A DNA stretch of 51,920 nt from Granulosicoccaceae bacterium (GTDB lineage: Bacteria > Pseudomonadota > Gammaproteobacteria > Granulosicoccales > Granulosicoccaceae): assembly GCA_020629835.1 (NCBI GenBank), contig JAHDCO010000027.1, forward strand, positions 1 through 51,920, in the 5' to 3' direction. The notes below the pieces were generated by a model, which saw only the letters and a program-made list of their open reading frames with translations, was not told where the DNA came from and did not search any database. Numbering within the stretch: the stretch's first letter is position 1; every line of letters begins with the position of its first letter. Shown here in pieces: positions 32,620-38,250 of the stretch. The translations under genes were made by a program, and so were the position numbers.

Positions 32620-34524
32620 TTATCTGGGTAAAGTCGCGGACTGCCATTTATCGAACACGGCTCGATAATCATAACCCCCCACATAGCCCAACTGATACCG
32701 GAACCGGTTCTGTTGTATGCGGCTTTGCGATAAGCGAAACGTGATGACATTGGGTTCGTCTTTTGACTTTGGGTAACCCATGATGGTGCTGTCGATGCCA
32801 CGGGCCAGGGAGGCGGTATTTTTAAGTCGCAGCAAGTAGTCCTGGCCAGCTGTGGGGATGCCATCGCTGTCAATTGCAAACCCGTTGTTGACAGTCACAT
32901 CCATCCAATACACATCGGCATCGTCTTCGTCGGCACGTATAGTAACGTTGCGGGTTTCTGGAATGGCTGCGGCCGCTTCTGATGTGGCTAATTCATCCAC
33001 ACGTTGTTGGAAACGAAAATTAATGTCTTCCAATTCGCACGGCAAACGCTGCAAGTGTTGACGCCAAAACGCAACGCCTCGTAGTGTCAGAACCGCATCA
33101 TCGGCACCCACAATAGTTAAAAACTTACCTAAGCTATCCGGCCCGCATACCTCGACCATGGTATCCACCCATAAGTCGCCCAGTGTGTAGGGCAGTTCGG
33201 CATCAAACTGTTCTGCAAACCCAGCGGTATCCACCATATCGGTGAACTTAATGTCGTTTCGATGGGCGGCCAGCGCACCGACTAACCAGTTGATTTCGCG
33301 TCGCGTGTCATCAGGTTCCACGGCAAAGGCAACGTGCTGGGCCATACCTTCGATAAAAAAATTGGCGCTCGCGTTAACCTTTTTTAGTTGGCGGTCAGTA
33401 ACAAATGACTGAAAGATATGCACCGTCTCATGCGCCAGCACAAAGCGATTCTCGGTGGATTGTGCGAAGCGCTGTAAGCGCATGCGGATGCGATTGTGTA
33501 CGGCTAAGCCTGCTACGTGGCTGGTGTTGGAAGTTAAGTCCGTTTGAATGATCGGTGGGGTATCGCTGTTTAAGTAGCTTGCAACCCGCACTAACAGGTC
33601 ATCTGCGTCGGCGGCGAGTTCTTCTGCGTACGGTGCGGCCGATTTAAAATAAACAAATCGGTAATGCTCAGTTTCCAGCGTGTCGTATGCCGCGTCGCGT
33701 TGTGCACCGCGTTGCTGCGAATGTTGCATGAGCCCGCCCATCAAACCCAGAAATACCAGCACCATTAACGGAACGGTTAGCCAGGGGGAAGTGATAGCCA
33801 GTTTTCGGTGGGTTTCCACCACTTCGCGCCTCATCCAGCGCTGATAACCCAGGATTAAGGCAACAACAGCCAACACGCCGTGCACGGCGAACAATGACCA
33901 GTCGATGATGAGCGTGCTGCCGAAGTAATCGACGTACATCAGGTTTAATAGGTTCCAGGCACCTATATAACCGGCAAGTGATTCAACGTAGGCCACCACC
34001 GCAAAGTACGCAGCAAACAGCACCAAGCCCATCAAGCGAAACGATGACAGGAACACGGCATACGCTAAAACGATGAATGAAAACGCTAAGCCGCGTACAA
34101 AAAACTGTGCGTCTAACGCAAGGTAGTATTTTCCATGCAGCGTTTGCGGATTCAAAGCCACAAAGGTGTAAGTAACCGCTGCGCTAAACACATAAAAGAA
34201 CACCAGAAGCGCCATACCGGCCAATACTTTTGCTGCGTATATCTGCGGCCGGCTTAACGCCAGCGACTGCAAATGCGCTAAGGTGCCGTCGTCTGCGTCT
34301 CTGGGGAATAAGCTCCAGCCCACCCAAACCACGATGGCGAGTAAAAGATAGATGGCGAAGTTCGCCACACCCGGTTGGCAAAAGGCATCGCACAGCACGG
34401 CGTATTCTGTTTCATCAATGCGGCTGGAAAACAGCAGCATGGCCGTGTTTAGTAGTTCCAGCAGCAACCATAAAATAGCCAGCGGCCAAAGCTGACGACA
34501 TTCGGTTTTGAACAACGTCATCAT
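32620..34524 (-). CDS. ABC-2 type permease fused to an extracytoplasmic HExxH metallopeptidase domain
   Basis: This is a 634-residue protein. Residues 1-265 hold six or seven membrane helices of an ABC-2 permease, with the cytoplasmic segment FPRDADDGTLAHLQSLALSR typical of such subunits. Residues 270-634 form a large domain predicted to face the periplasm. It carries HETVH at 365-369 and, 22 residues later, FFIEGMAQ with Glu392, matching the HExxH...E zinc site of gluzincins (Peptidase_MA/M1-like). An active zinc peptidase is therefore plausible. Related permease-aminopeptidase fusions (ABC-2 with M1) are known, but no GAMEN motif is seen here. The start overlaps the stop of the partner permease by 4 bases. 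Confidence 0.83.
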   Translation of the reverse strand: MMTLFKTECRQLWPLAILWLLLELLNTAMLLFSSRIDETEYAVLCDAFCQPGVANFAIYLLLAIVVWVGWSLFPRDADDGTLAHLQSLALSRPQIYAAKVLAGMALLVFFYVFSAAVTYTFVALNPQTLHGKYYLALDAQFFVRGLAFSFIVLAYAVFLSSFRLMGLVLFAAYFAVVAYVESLAGYIGAWNLLNLMYVDYFGSTLIIDWSLFAVHGVLAVVALILGYQRWMRREVVETHRKLAITSPWLTVPLMVLVFLGLMGGLMQHSQQRGAQRDAAYDTLETEHYRFVYFKSAAPYAEELAADADDLLVRVASYLNSDTPPIIQTDLTSNTSHVAGLAVHNRIRMRLQRFAQSTENRFVLAHETVHIFQSFVTDRQLKKVNASANFFIEGMAQHVAFAVEPDDTRREINWLVGALAAHRNDIKFTDMVDTAGFAEQFDAELPYTLGDLWVDTMVEVCGPDSLGKFLTIVGADDAVLTLRGVAFWRQHLQRLPCELEDINFRFQQRVDELATSEAAAAIPETRNVTIRADEDDADVYWMDVTVNNGFAIDSDGIPTAGQDYLLRLKNTASLARGIDSTIMGYPKSKDEPNVITFRLSQSRIQQNRFRYQLGYVGGYDYRAVFDKWQSATLPR

Positions 34525-36533
34525 GGCGCGGTCACTCGTTCTGCATGCAGCCGGATAGGTTGATGAAAGGCGGGTGTCCTTACCTCCACCGTCATGTACA
34601 ACCGGTCACCTGGCCCAACCGGGCCATATTCCCACAAGGTTTTTGCCTCGCCCTGGCAATCACTGATGGTGAAATCGTTGAACACGAAATCCATCTCGGT
34701 ATCGAACGGACTGGCAGGCGTGTAGTTAAGCACGCACTCGGACGGTTCGATGTTTGTCGGCTCATTGTCCGTCGTTGATACATCGGTATCTTCGTACACG
34801 TCTTGCCGTACGTACTGGAGCGCGCTTTCTTCATCGATGGCGGGCAAGGTTTGCTTGTCTGTGGCCAGGCTACCCATCAAAATCGGCCCGAGTAGAGGGT
34901 CATTCACAATATTCACAGCGGCCATGCGATACGGCATGGCTTCAACGAATGTGGCTACCTCACGTTGTGTACCAGCGTCTCGCAATGCGTCTTGCCACCC
35001 TTGTGAAAATTCAGTCCAGGTAATGCCGGTAACCGACTCGAATTCTGTGGGCACATTAACTAACCAACGCTTAATAGCAGCGCGTGAGTCAGCTTCAAAC
35101 GGGTAGGCTAACCAACGCATGGCAAGTTCATCAATGGCGGATTCGCCGCTTACTGTGCTTAAGTAATCCAGTGCACTGTAAGCCAGCGCCTCTGCCGAGG
35201 CATAGCCGATTTTATCGGCGATGGTTTGCCATTGATAAATGAGATCAACGTTGTTGCCCAACACATCTAGCGAGATCAAAGCACGAGCCATTAATTCGTG
35301 ATGGTTTTCGCTACGTTGTGCGAGTGTGCTGGCGGTGGTATTGGCTTCGGTTATCAATCGGGTGTAACCATCCAAAAACCAATGGTAGTGCTCAAACACC
35401 GCGCGGCCTCGACTGACGTCCAGTAGCAGTTGATGCAATACCGTTGTTCTGAAGACCACTCGGTCGTAATGATCGGCGTCTTCCAAGTTTCCGTAAACCA
35501 GGGGTCCGTCAGCGCGCTCTGCAATAAACTCCCACGTGGCGATATCGCCGTCGTGCACAACATAAGAGGGTGGTAAAACGAGGGGGCCGATGCGGGACTG
35601 CAGTGAAGTAATGTCATCTACCAGTGCTTCAAGTACGGGTTCCGCAGCTGCTTTTAAGTTGGGGTCAAGGTACGCAACGGTGACGTTATGTAAGTTGTCG
35701 TCTAAGCGGTGTTGTGTGGCAATGGGAAACGGATCAGGGCTGGGCGTTTCATCGAGCAGGGTTAGTAGTGTTAAAAAGGCGGCGATTAAGAAGCTCGCCA
35801 GTAGGTAATCGCGTCGGGCCATAGGGCGCGCCATGACTTCAGCCATAGAGCCTTCGTGCCATAACGCAATAAAAAAACCGATTACGGTGAACGCACCAAT
35901 TAATGCCCAGGTTTCAATTAACGCTTGCTTCGGGATTTCAACGCGTTCGTACACCAGTGTGCCGTCTAGCAACAACGCAAAGGGACCGAAGTCACTGACA
36001 TCCACGGATGACGACGCCAACAGGTAATACACAGCGCCAAACAAAATGACATACAGCACCAAACGTAAGTGTCCTGACAGGCTAATGGCGAACACGACGG
36101 CCCAGTACAGTAAAGCCAGAGAACCGGTTTTTAACGCTAACAGAGCGAAATAACTGGGCGTTATGCTGTCAATGGCGCTGGCGTAGCTCGCGGCCATGTA
36201 CAAGGTAATTAACATCAGGCCGACCACCACAAAAGCGCCGGCACAGTACTTTATAAACACCGGTGTAAAGCGTCTTACCGGCAGAGACTCTGTGAATAGA
36301 TACGCCTTGGAATGATAGTCTCTAACGATCAATCGGTTACCCAAGATAAACGCCGCGAGCGGTATGAACGTGAATAACGCATAGCTCAAGATATCCAGTG
36401 GTGAAATACTGAACTCTTGATTCTGTTGTCGGGCCAGGGTGACGAACAACGCCAACAGCACACCGATAACCAAGGCACCGACGGCGACCCCATGTTCGGC
36501 GATTTCTTTTTTTATGAACGACCCAGTGGCCAT
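34521..36533 (-). CDS. ABC-2 type permease with degenerate peptidase-like extracytoplasmic domain
   Basis: This is a 670-residue protein; GAGG lies seven bases before the ATG. Residues 1-260 contain ABC-2 membrane helices, including the family segment GNRLIVRDYHSKAYLFTESLPVRR. The remaining 400 residues form a periplasmic domain resembling that of the partner permease. At the position of HETVH it has VLHQLLLD (365-372), and in place of the FIEGMAQ glutamate it has FLDGYTR (386-392). The zinc ligands are thus lost, and this copy looks catalytically dead. It lies 16 bases after the ATPase gene, in a three-gene exporter operon. Confidence 0.8.
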   Translation of the reverse strand: MATGSFIKKEIAEHGVAVGALVIGVLLALFVTLARQQNQEFSISPLDILSYALFTFIPLAAFILGNRLIVRDYHSKAYLFTESLPVRRFTPVFIKYCAGAFVVVGLMLITLYMAASYASAIDSITPSYFALLALKTGSLALLYWAVVFAISLSGHLRLVLYVILFGAVYYLLASSSVDVSDFGPFALLLDGTLVYERVEIPKQALIETWALIGAFTVIGFFIALWHEGSMAEVMARPMARRDYLLASFLIAAFLTLLTLLDETPSPDPFPIATQHRLDDNLHNVTVAYLDPNLKAAAEPVLEALVDDITSLQSRIGPLVLPPSYVVHDGDIATWEFIAERADGPLVYGNLEDADHYDRVVFRTTVLHQLLLDVSRGRAVFEHYHWFLDGYTRLITEANTTASTLAQRSENHHELMARALISLDVLGNNVDLIYQWQTIADKIGYASAEALAYSALDYLSTVSGESAIDELAMRWLAYPFEADSRAAIKRWLVNVPTEFESVTGITWTEFSQGWQDALRDAGTQREVATFVEAMPYRMAAVNIVNDPLLGPILMGSLATDKQTLPAIDEESALQYVRQDVYEDTDVSTTDNEPTNIEPSECVLNYTPASPFDTEMDFVFNDFTISDCQGEAKTLWEYGPVGPGDRLYMTVEVRTPAFHQPIRLHAERVTAP

Positions 36534-36549
36534 GTCAGTGCCTCAGCAA

Positions 36550-37512
36550 TCAGTGCTTTTGCAGAATCATGGCAACGAAAATGTCTTCTAAAGACAGTTC
36601 CACGGGAACCCAGCCGTTGGGCAATGCCGAAGGCGGTATGTTCGGCGGTGTGTCGCTGAGCCAACGCAAAATCACAGTTTGCTTGCGTGTATCACCGCCA
36701 GCTTGAACAATAGCGAACGGGTAACCGTTCAATTCATCCAGTGGGAAGGCGTCCGTATCCGGGGTGACTTCAGCGGTAAAACTGGCTGTACGATTTGACA
36801 GAGCGTCTAAGGAACCTTCATACACTAAGGTACCTTGATCTAGTATACCGATGCGATCGGCCAGGCTTTCGATATCACCAATGAGGTGTGTAGAGAAAAA
36901 CACGGTGGTATCGCTGTGGGTAACTTCAGCCTTCACTAAAGATAAAAATTCACGCCGTGCAACTGGGTCCATACCGGCGGTGGGCTCATCCAAAATCAGC
37001 AGTCTGGGCATACCGGCCAATGCCATTGACAGTGCCAGTCGTGCTTTCATACCGCCAGAAAAACTTCCCGATTTTCGATTAAGTGGTAACTCAAATCGCG
37101 TTAGCAGCGACTGGTAGCGTTCGTCACTCCAGTCCGGGTACAAGCCCCTCATAAATCGGCCCAACCGTTGTGGCGTCATCCACGGATAAAACGATTGTTC
37201 CTGAGCCACGAATCCAATCTGCTGTCGGGCTTTGGCACAGCGCGAACCACGCATGGGGGAACCGAACACCGACACCGTGCCGGACGTTGGTGGAGAGATG
37301 CCCATCATCAGACGTATGGCAGTCGACTTTCCCGCACCGTTGCGACCTAAAAATCCGTAGATTTCACCCGGACGAACATTGAGGTTTAACCCGTTGAGTA
37401 CTTGTAATTTGCCGTAACGCTTTGAAACGTCCGACAGGGATACCAAGGGCGGGCTGCTTAAGCGTTGTGCGGGTGTGGTGTCTTCGGAAGACGACGTGGC
37501 GGTTTCAACCAT
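36550..37512 (-). CDS. ABC transporter ATP-binding protein
   Basis: This is a 320-residue ATPase energising the two downstream permeases. Walker A is GRNGAGKST, the Q-loop lies in IGFVAQEQSFYPWMTP, the signature is FSGGMKARLALSMAL, Walker B is LLILDEPTAGMDP, and the H-loop is FFSTHLIGDIES. A C-terminal extension of about 90 residues is typical of ABC-2 exporter ATPases. The ATG at 37512 is preferred; an in-frame GTG at 37569 would add 19 residues. Gene order is ATPase, permease with inactive domain, permease with active domain. Confidence 0.93.
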   Translation of the reverse strand: MVETATSSSEDTTPAQRLSSPPLVSLSDVSKRYGKLQVLNGLNLNVRPGEIYGFLGRNGAGKSTAIRLMMGISPPTSGTVSVFGSPMRGSRCAKARQQIGFVAQEQSFYPWMTPQRLGRFMRGLYPDWSDERYQSLLTRFELPLNRKSGSFSGGMKARLALSMALAGMPRLLILDEPTAGMDPVARREFLSLVKAEVTHSDTTVFFSTHLIGDIESLADRIGILDQGTLVYEGSLDALSNRTASFTAEVTPDTDAFPLDELNGYPFAIVQAGGDTRKQTVILRWLSDTPPNIPPSALPNGWVPVELSLEDIFVAMILQKH

Positions 37513-37588
37513 AAGTTCGAAAGATATCCAGGAAGCGTGAAGGTACGGGCGATCAATTGGGTTTGGCACACATCAGTGCCTTTACGAT

Positions 37589-38209
37589 TTACGACCGGCG
37601 ATTAAAGATATCGTCGTTGTTTACGTTGGAAGAAGCCTTTGTGGACTCCAGCAGCTGCTTTGATATCACTAATGCTACCAACGCACCAGCAATCGCTCCG
37701 ATTAAGTGACCGTCCCATGACACACCTGGCTGAGTGGGCAAGACGCCGCGCAACAGCGTGCCAGCGTACACAAATCCTACGATGGCAGAAATGACAATCG
37801 ATACGAAACGCCGTTCAAACAGCCCAGCGAAAACATGAAAGGCAATCAGCCCGAAAACCAATCCACTGGCACCGATGTGTCTTGCTTCGCGGCCAAATAA
37901 CCATAAACCGATACCGGCGAGTATGGCGATTGCCAGCACAATCTGAACACTATTGGCGCGCGACCCGGCAAGCAAAGCGAGGGTTACAAACAAAGGCACC
38001 GTGTTGCTGGTGATATGAGCTAAATCAGCGTGTAAAAAAGGCATTGCCACGATGCCGGTCAGTCCAATGACCGTTCTGGGAATGAGCCCAAACTGCTCTA
38101 GTGGTAGCAGTCTGTCTAATACAAAGACAAACCAGATAACGCCCACGAACAGCGCTATCCAGCGAAAGTCGCTGGCCAGTTCGTGAGCGTTTTTTTTATC
38201 AATCAACAT
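37589..38209 (-). CDS. Rhomboid-family intramembrane serine protease
   Basis: This is a 206-residue protein with about six membrane helices. The catalytic pair is visible as Ser115 in HIGASGLVFG and His168 in SWDGHLIGAIAG, with the HADLAHITSNTVPLF motif after the first helix acting as the oxyanion and loop region. The ATG at 38209 gives MLIDKKNAHEL; an upstream TTG at 38248 would translate a 12-base repeat and is unlikely. Rhomboids cut single-span membrane proteins. The substrate is unknown. It lies just upstream of the ABC exporter operon on the same strand. Confidence 0.9.
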   Translation of the reverse strand: MLIDKKNAHELASDFRWIALFVGVIWFVFVLDRLLPLEQFGLIPRTVIGLTGIVAMPFLHADLAHITSNTVPLFVTLALLAGSRANSVQIVLAIAILAGIGLWLFGREARHIGASGLVFGLIAFHVFAGLFERRFVSIVISAIVGFVYAGTLLRGVLPTQPGVSWDGHLIGAIAGALVALVISKQLLESTKASSNVNNDDIFNRRS

Positions 38210-38214
38210 TGGTT

Positions 38215-38250
38215 GCGGATGCAATTGCGGATGCAATCGCGGATGCAATC
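38215..38250. repeat. Three tandem 12-base repeats upstream of the rhomboid gene
   Basis: GCGGATGCAATY repeats three times (38215-38226, 38227-38238, 38239-38250), followed by two decayed copies to about 38274. The array lies in the leader just before the rhomboid ATG on the minus strand. Confidence 0.75.

Follow-up and report, generated by a model that had tools for sequence, protein, structure and literature searches.

A conserved three-gene ABC-2-type module in Granulosicoccaceae with one intact and one HExxH-less gluzincin-fold lobe, as predicted from sequence and models

The locus and its three genes

We analysed a 51,920-nucleotide stretch of DNA from a Granulosicoccaceae bacterium (NCBI GenBank assembly GCA_020629835.1, contig JAHDCO010000027.1, positions 1 to 51,920, here called the window), in which open reading frame (ORF) analysis places three genes on the minus strand at 32620-37569, in the transcription order ATP-binding cassette (ABC) ATPase, P2 and P1 (Table 1). 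P1 and P2 are ABC-2-type permeases with large C-terminal domains, one with and one without the HExxH motif of zinc peptidases. A preliminary description, made from the letters alone, had listed these close or overlapping genes much as we find them, except that it let the locus end at 37512; this is an internal ATG, and the ATPase is 339 residues long from a GTG start at 37569. The P1 and P2 genes overlap by 4 bases, and a gap of 16 bases separates the ATPase stop from the P2 start.

The Walker B glutamate and the switch histidine are kept in 29/29 aligned ATPases and the Walker A lysine in 28 of them, the remaining row having a gap there. P1 lies above the Pfam cut-off for the ABC-2 family PF12679 (30.3 bits against 27.2), and P2 falls below every Pfam cut-off, those of the ABC-2 families included. 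P1 also carries a CxxxC pair at residues 45 and 49, in the first predicted outer loop, which is kept in 28 of the 30 members.

Table 1. Features of the ABC-P2-P1 locus in window coordinates (aa, amino acids; AF2, AlphaFold2).
Feature	Position	Strand	Basis
P1, ABC-2-type permease with predicted C-terminal gluzincin-fold ectodomain, intact HExxH...E	32620..34524	-	ORF of 634 aa; PF12679; AF2; Foldseek to M1/M61
P1 ectodomain, aa 276-634, catalytic-type domain and C-terminal beta part	32623..33699	-	AF2 model; VIA
P1 HETVH, aa 365-369	33418..33432	-	H, E and H identical in 30/30
P1 E392, candidate third zinc ligand	33349..33351	-	identical in 30/30; x22 spacing in 30/30
P1 Y446, candidate catalytic tyrosine	33187..33189	-	identical in 30/30
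P2, ABC-2-type permease with predicted C-terminal gluzincin-fold ectodomain, no HExxH	34521..36533	-	ORF of 670 aa; AF2; VIA
P2 ectodomain, aa 263-670	34524..35747	-	AF2 model; Foldseek
P2 conserved stretch at pseudo-active site (H367, R377, E381, H384, W385, D388)	35370..35435	-	invariant columns in 28 sequences
ABC ATPase subunit with Walker A, SGG, Walker B Glu and switch His	36550..37569	-	PF00005, 1.3e-30; motifs
Rhomboid protease gene, 19 bases upstream of the ATPase	37589..38248	-	PF01694, 9.1e-18

Folds and sites of the two ectodomains

For the comparisons that follow, P1 is represented by 29 of 30 loci together with the window, and P2 by 27 of 28 full loci together with the window, the fragment L063 being skipped. 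Locus L076 is not among the rows of A3 and A4, A5 omits L078, L083 and L084, and A6 omits L078 and L084. P1 of L055 is missing from the motif alignment and its motif was taken separately (HETTH, EG). Columns entered the invariance counts where at least 80% of the rows have letters. A divergent 29th P2, from genome G032 (L061), is encoded on a separate contig and enters only the pocket comparison and a repeat of the clustering test.

In P1, H365, E366, H369, E392 and Y446 are identical in 30/30 sequences, at identities down to 28%, and the 22 residues that separate H369 from E392 are likewise constant in all 30. The HETVH motif and the glutamate that opens EGMAQ (which begins at residue 392), both picked out in the preliminary description, are thus present and held across the homologues, and the conservation of the motif means that it is not a chance occurrence. 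In the AlphaFold2 model HExxH and E392 lie on consecutive helices, and Y446 is, by the spacing in family M1, a candidate for the catalytic tyrosine. The P1 lobe is probably a zinc metallopeptidase; its site is borne out by conservation. P1 also touches DUF6055 (PF19527), an uncharacterised Pfam family: 24 of the 30 members match it weakly (E up to 0.1, the lowest being 6.5e-5), and P1 of the window reaches 14 bits against a cut-off of 27, in a match over residues 344-407 that spans HExxH. DUF6055 may itself be a metallopeptidase family.

The models, built from 30 natural sequences for P1 and 28 for P2 (mean predicted local distance difference test, pLDDT, of 81.1 and 82.5, respectively), both show about seven membrane helices and then a C-terminal domain. 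In each, this domain has a pair of short strands and a long helix, after which further strands lead to two successive helices at the position of the zinc site in gluzincins; a helical part comes next, and more strands form the C-terminus. The Foldseek and VIA results given here are among the matches listed, and families outside those lists may match as well. Foldseek pairs P1 with peptidases of M1 and M61 (E 2.4e-5, probability 1.00), and VIA aligns its ectodomain with puromycin-sensitive aminopeptidase at Z 16.2 (3.2 A over 218 residues). For P2 the best Foldseek match is the TFIID chain 7edx_B, the others being M1 peptidases and clostridial collagenases (listed E range 2e-3 to 1e-2, best 2.2e-3), and VIA gives Z of about 14 to collagenase H, M1 and TFIID chains. 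Both ectodomains are predicted on these models to take the gluzincin (M1/M61/M9-like) fold, and the absence of a zincin fold, which the preliminary description had named as grounds for refutation, was not borne out. Solved structures searched by single-protein sequence gave no match at E up to 1, and profile searches gave chance-level matches only. Taken whole, P1 and P2 can be aligned through most of each protein, in 561 columns (hhalign probability 98.2%, E 3.2e-14).

Both ectodomains, including the one that holds HETVH, are predicted to lie outside the membrane on three counts: the number of membrane helices is odd, the loop that precedes the final helix of P1 contains basic residues, and each ectodomain has an invariant pair of cysteines, C460/C496 in P1 and C600/C626 in P2.

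HExxH is absent from the corresponding place in 28/28 P2 sequences, and 27 of them lack it altogether, L082 having a stray HEKPH at residue 470. What P2 has at that place instead is a stretch in which H367, R377, E381, H384, W385 and D388 are invariant in all 28; VLHQL, to which the preliminary description had pointed, holds H367, and LDGYT holds D388. These six make up half of the 12 invariant ectodomain columns, and as many fell within 22 residues in 17 of 20000 random placements. The divergent G032 protein retains R377, E381, W385 and D388, with Arg in place of H367 and Ala in place of H384; when it is included, 4 of 10 invariant columns lie at the pseudo-site, as in 1349 of 20000 random placements, and the clustering is no longer significant. 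In most of the family, then, a conserved pocket stands where the active site would be, though not in the most divergent member. The exact register against P1 is not settled, the helix ends in the models making it more probable that P2 H367 corresponds to P1 H369, with HETVH over TTVLH, and the profile alignment (hhalign) setting H367 at the first histidine, with a gap; either way the catalytic glutamate and one histidine are missing. There is also no invariant tyrosine in P2 columns 444-459, the stretch that we take to match P1 Y446. The pairing of an active with an apparently dead domain, as first proposed, therefore holds at the level of the motifs; of the two P2 motifs, H367 and D388 are kept in the 28 aligned sequences, and H367 is lost in G032.

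The conserved P2 stretch could be read in two further ways. P2 may have been re-tooled, with H367, H384 and D388 (and with them E381 and R377) forming another site, for metal binding or for catalysis, on the pair of helices that in gluzincins bears the zinc site; if so, one complex would bear two unlike active sites that could act on one substrate in turn. G032 lost H367 and H384 together, as a paired site would predict, and shows equally that an H367/H384 site is dispensable in that lineage; we regard this reading as rather improbable. Alternatively, the P2 ectodomain may be a degenerating copy with a role no greater than scaffolding. It is the less conserved part of P2, at a mean pairwise identity of 0.354 where the membrane part has 0.453, and G032 has shed two pocket residues, whereupon the cluster does not stand out from chance, but in the other 28 proteins half of the invariant ectodomain columns sit at the pseudo-site, and P1 never occurs without P2 in the 48 genomes of the family; decay of this kind appears unlikely to us. 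Because G032 weakens the clustering, we lowered our probability for the reading preferred below from 0.55 to 0.53 and that for a re-tooled site a little, and raised that for a degenerating copy a little.

Distribution, neighbourhood and probable working of the module

P1 was found in 32 of the 143 genomes searched (relatives and the window's own), and within the family the P1 and P2 ectodomains occur in the same 32 of 48 genomes, none of which shows P1 without P2; a search at the level of the order covered these same 48 genomes. The P1 ectodomain is absent from 397/397 other genomes in a phylum-wide sample (E up to 0.01), and P2 occurs in 2 of 274 genomes of the class, both of them family members. 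A search with full-length P1 against 369 genomes of the class returned 27 beyond three family members, set aside as weak matches to membrane segments alone. By label, 29 of the 31 loci in the named genome collection belong to Granulosicoccaceae or Granulosicoccus, one to Chromatiales and one (L089) to an uncultured gammaproteobacterium. The order ABC-P2-P1 is kept in 28 of these 31 loci, and the other three are interrupted by contig ends. The three proteins correlate in their pairwise identities across 27 loci and the window (r 0.935-0.979; L032, L033 and L055 left out).

The flanking genes vary between genomes, so that ABC-P2-P1 looks like a self-contained three-gene module. The commonest neighbours beyond the three (RimM, TrmD, an EAL/GGDEF protein, an iron alcohol dehydrogenase, methionine synthase and others) occur in at most 14 of 32 loci and are unrelated, and were rejected as conserved partners. 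The rhomboid protease gene upstream of the ATPase encodes GASG and GH motifs and is placed likewise in L031 and L033; in L061 it lies near P1 on the opposite strand, and it was not found in the stretches fetched from other relatives. Since it is so placed in close relatives only, we do not count it as a core gene.

The vagaries of this distribution could also speak for detoxification, in which the complex would expel, cleave, or both expel and cleave antimicrobial peptides that reach the membrane. The module is patchy, being present in 32 of 48 family genomes, and the best NCBIfam matches of the ATPase are the DrrA and PmtA models, both below cut-off; against this, no regulator recurs beside the operon across the family, where flanks vary, and P1 and P2 have no match to a defence family at E up to 0.01. 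Defence-family matches of the ATPase were discarded, as they reflect shared ATPase motifs. We consider detoxification very unlikely.

The reading that we prefer, with a probability of roughly 0.53, is a three-subunit ABC-2-type complex with an active P1 lobe and a non-catalytic P2 lobe, in which export or extraction would be coupled to trimming. The ATPase is a single gene and so presumably forms a dimer, which would drive a heterodimer of the permeases P1 and P2. The membrane fold of this heterodimer would be like that of NosY, and each half would bear a periplasmic gluzincin-fold lobe. The P1 lobe would be the zinc metallopeptidase, as its conserved site suggests, and the P2 lobe a pseudo-peptidase that has lost the catalytic glutamate, one zinc histidine and, by the alignment that we take as likely, the tyrosine. 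This lobe, whose pocket is kept in nearly all relatives, most likely serves to position the substrate or to regulate P1. The complex as a whole would probably use ATP to export a peptide or protein, or to draw it out of the membrane, in step with its trimming at the outer face. The heterodimer, the side of the membrane, the coupling to ATP, the substrate and peptide processing are all points that we infer. The heterodimeric exporter of the preliminary description thus keeps its two-permease architecture and the co-occurrence of its halves in 32 of 48 genomes; its peptide export and its substrate binding by P2 are put forward here as putative components.

Several results weigh against this reading. 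No P2 match to a known structure has a Foldseek E below 0.001 among those listed; the two ectodomains taken alone align weakly (hhalign probability 16%, E 1.6e-3), and because of this their relation rests on the models; and the charge bias of loops other than the one named above is weak as evidence of topology. The clustering of invariant P2 columns does not survive G032, the correlated identities of the three proteins are equally expected from plain vertical descent, and export as the direction is assumed from the ABC-2 family. A family-wide substrate, adaptor or outer-membrane gene beside the operon was not found: ORFs of 25-150 residues within 1.5 kb of the operon in 29 loci, including the window, yielded no dedicated substrate present throughout the family, and none of the 14 largest clusters of such ORFs spans more than 11 loci, many of these ORFs shadowing a larger gene out of frame. 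The small peptide gene that the preliminary description had proposed to look for among the neighbours therefore did not appear, and we accordingly give export coupled to peptide processing moderate weight.

The main rival is mechanotransmission, in which ATP hydrolysis moves the P1 and P2 lobes and so gates a periplasmic protease that acts on periplasmic or membrane proteins, with nothing translocated. NosDFY- and MacB-type systems transmit ATP-driven movement in this way. The P2 membrane part is close to NosY (VIA Z 15.9, 3.8 A over 223 residues) and to CcmB, among others, 12 of 30 P1 members match CcmB weakly in Pfam, and the paired lobes come with no substrate gene; but exporters (a mycobacterial efflux pump, 8k1m, and ABCG2) match P2 about as well, and for this reason the fold alone does not decide between transport and mechanotransmission. 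We hold mechanotransmission to be possible, if doubtful.

On the reading of export or extraction coupled to trimming, an active lobe and a pseudo-enzyme in the same genomes offer a clean system in which to ask whether a peptidase lobe works during transport, and what the inactive lobe beside it is good for. The pairing of a peptidase with a pseudo-peptidase would, besides, gain an example from a bacterial membrane.

Relation to known systems

Family M1 has a spacing of HExxH-x18-E and an exopeptidase motif, GxMEN. P1 fails the sequence tests of this family, since its spacing is x22 in 30/30 members, the strand that corresponds to GxMEN reads GLAVHNRIRMRL and has no glutamate, and Peptidase_M1 (PF01433) gives no match in 30/30 at E up to 0.1. 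The yardstick proteins behave variously with this profile: L102, which is one of the 27 weak membrane-segment matches above and an M1 fusion, lies above the cut-off, L155 below it (21.1 bits against 27.7) and L156 has no match.

That ABC-2/M1 aminopeptidase fusions exist, as the preliminary description had stated, is borne out by Myxococcus xanthus Q1D520 (TC 3.A.1.145.1), reported as a protein of 1200 residues with 13 predicted membrane segments and a C-terminal M1 domain; the substrate of such peptidase-fused transporters is guessed there to be an amino acid or derivative (PMC3924187). We inspected six such fusions, L155 (in G009) and L157-L161 (together from genomes G186, G009, G227, G059, G302 and G211; L102 and L157 are the same place in G186), and fusions of this kind occur in 5 of 274 genomes of the class. 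All six have HExxH and SExIG instead of GxMEN, in the form SE(N/G/S/E)IG with the glutamate kept, and HExxH lies 19 residues from the glutamate in the two that were counted, itself off the x18 of M1. The lack of GAMEN, from which a family other than M1 had been argued, is therefore weak as an argument, since it does not by itself separate P1 from fusions that lack canonical GAMEN too; the fusions do keep a glutamate there that P1 lacks. P1 is set apart by the x22 spacing, by the 0/30 PF01433 result, by two chains in place of one and by its short distance from the last membrane helix to HExxH, about 90-100 residues against roughly 330 in L102, as aligned, which leaves scarcely any space for an N-terminal M1 domain. 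The P1 membrane part aligns to the second membrane domain of L102 (94.4%, E 8.7e-8), and the P2 membrane part has no significant match to L102 (1.8%).

Replacement of P1/P2 by an M1 fusion was considered and rejected, as only G009 of 48 family genomes has a clear full-length fusion, alongside P1/P2. A single-chain ABC-2 relative, L156, lies at 4-2997 on the minus strand in G034, a family genome without P1/P2, where a contig end cuts the gene. At 20% identity to L155 it is distant kin of the M1 fusions; it has no Pfam match and no HExxH in the part read, and an ABC ATPase gene and a TonB-dependent receptor gene precede it on the same strand.

Among other systems, M1 aminopeptidases, M61 and M9 collagenases share the predicted fold of the ectodomains, and P1 has their HExxH with a downstream Glu and Tyr, but P1 and P2 have no above-cut-off match to these families, and P1 has a glutamate spacing of 22 and no GxMEN-like strand with Glu. 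Chain 7edx_B is, we presume, TAF2, which is M1-like and non-catalytic; TAF2 and P2 have in common an M1-like fold kept without catalysis, but TAF2 is a eukaryotic transcription factor and not part of a transporter, so that no common function is implied. NosDFY and CcmAB share the permease fold with P1/P2, but their permeases are not known to carry a peptidase lobe, and chain lengths of 219-269 in the structure matches fit this. C39 peptidase-containing ABC transporters differ in having an N-terminal C39 domain, which had no Pfam match in the ATPase, P1 or P2. In the literature searched, by title or start of abstract, we found no description of a paired P1/P2 system.

The nearest known kind is therefore the single-chain ABC-2/M1 fusions of TC 3.A.1.145. 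Both these and P1/P2 have an ABC-2 membrane part followed by a C-terminal gluzincin-fold domain (predicted for P1/P2), and an adjacent ATPase gene on the same strand (upstream in L155, the one fusion checked). The fusions described in PMC3924187 and those inspected here are single chains of about 1200 residues, in which one M1 domain goes with two membrane domains, whereas P1 and P2 are two genes with one membrane part and one lobe each, one of them without an active site, and P1 has a shorter ectodomain, x22 in place of x19 and no PF01433 match. The ABC-P2-P1 system is real and conserved, and looks like a variant of this known, uncharacterised peptidase-fused ABC-2 kind.

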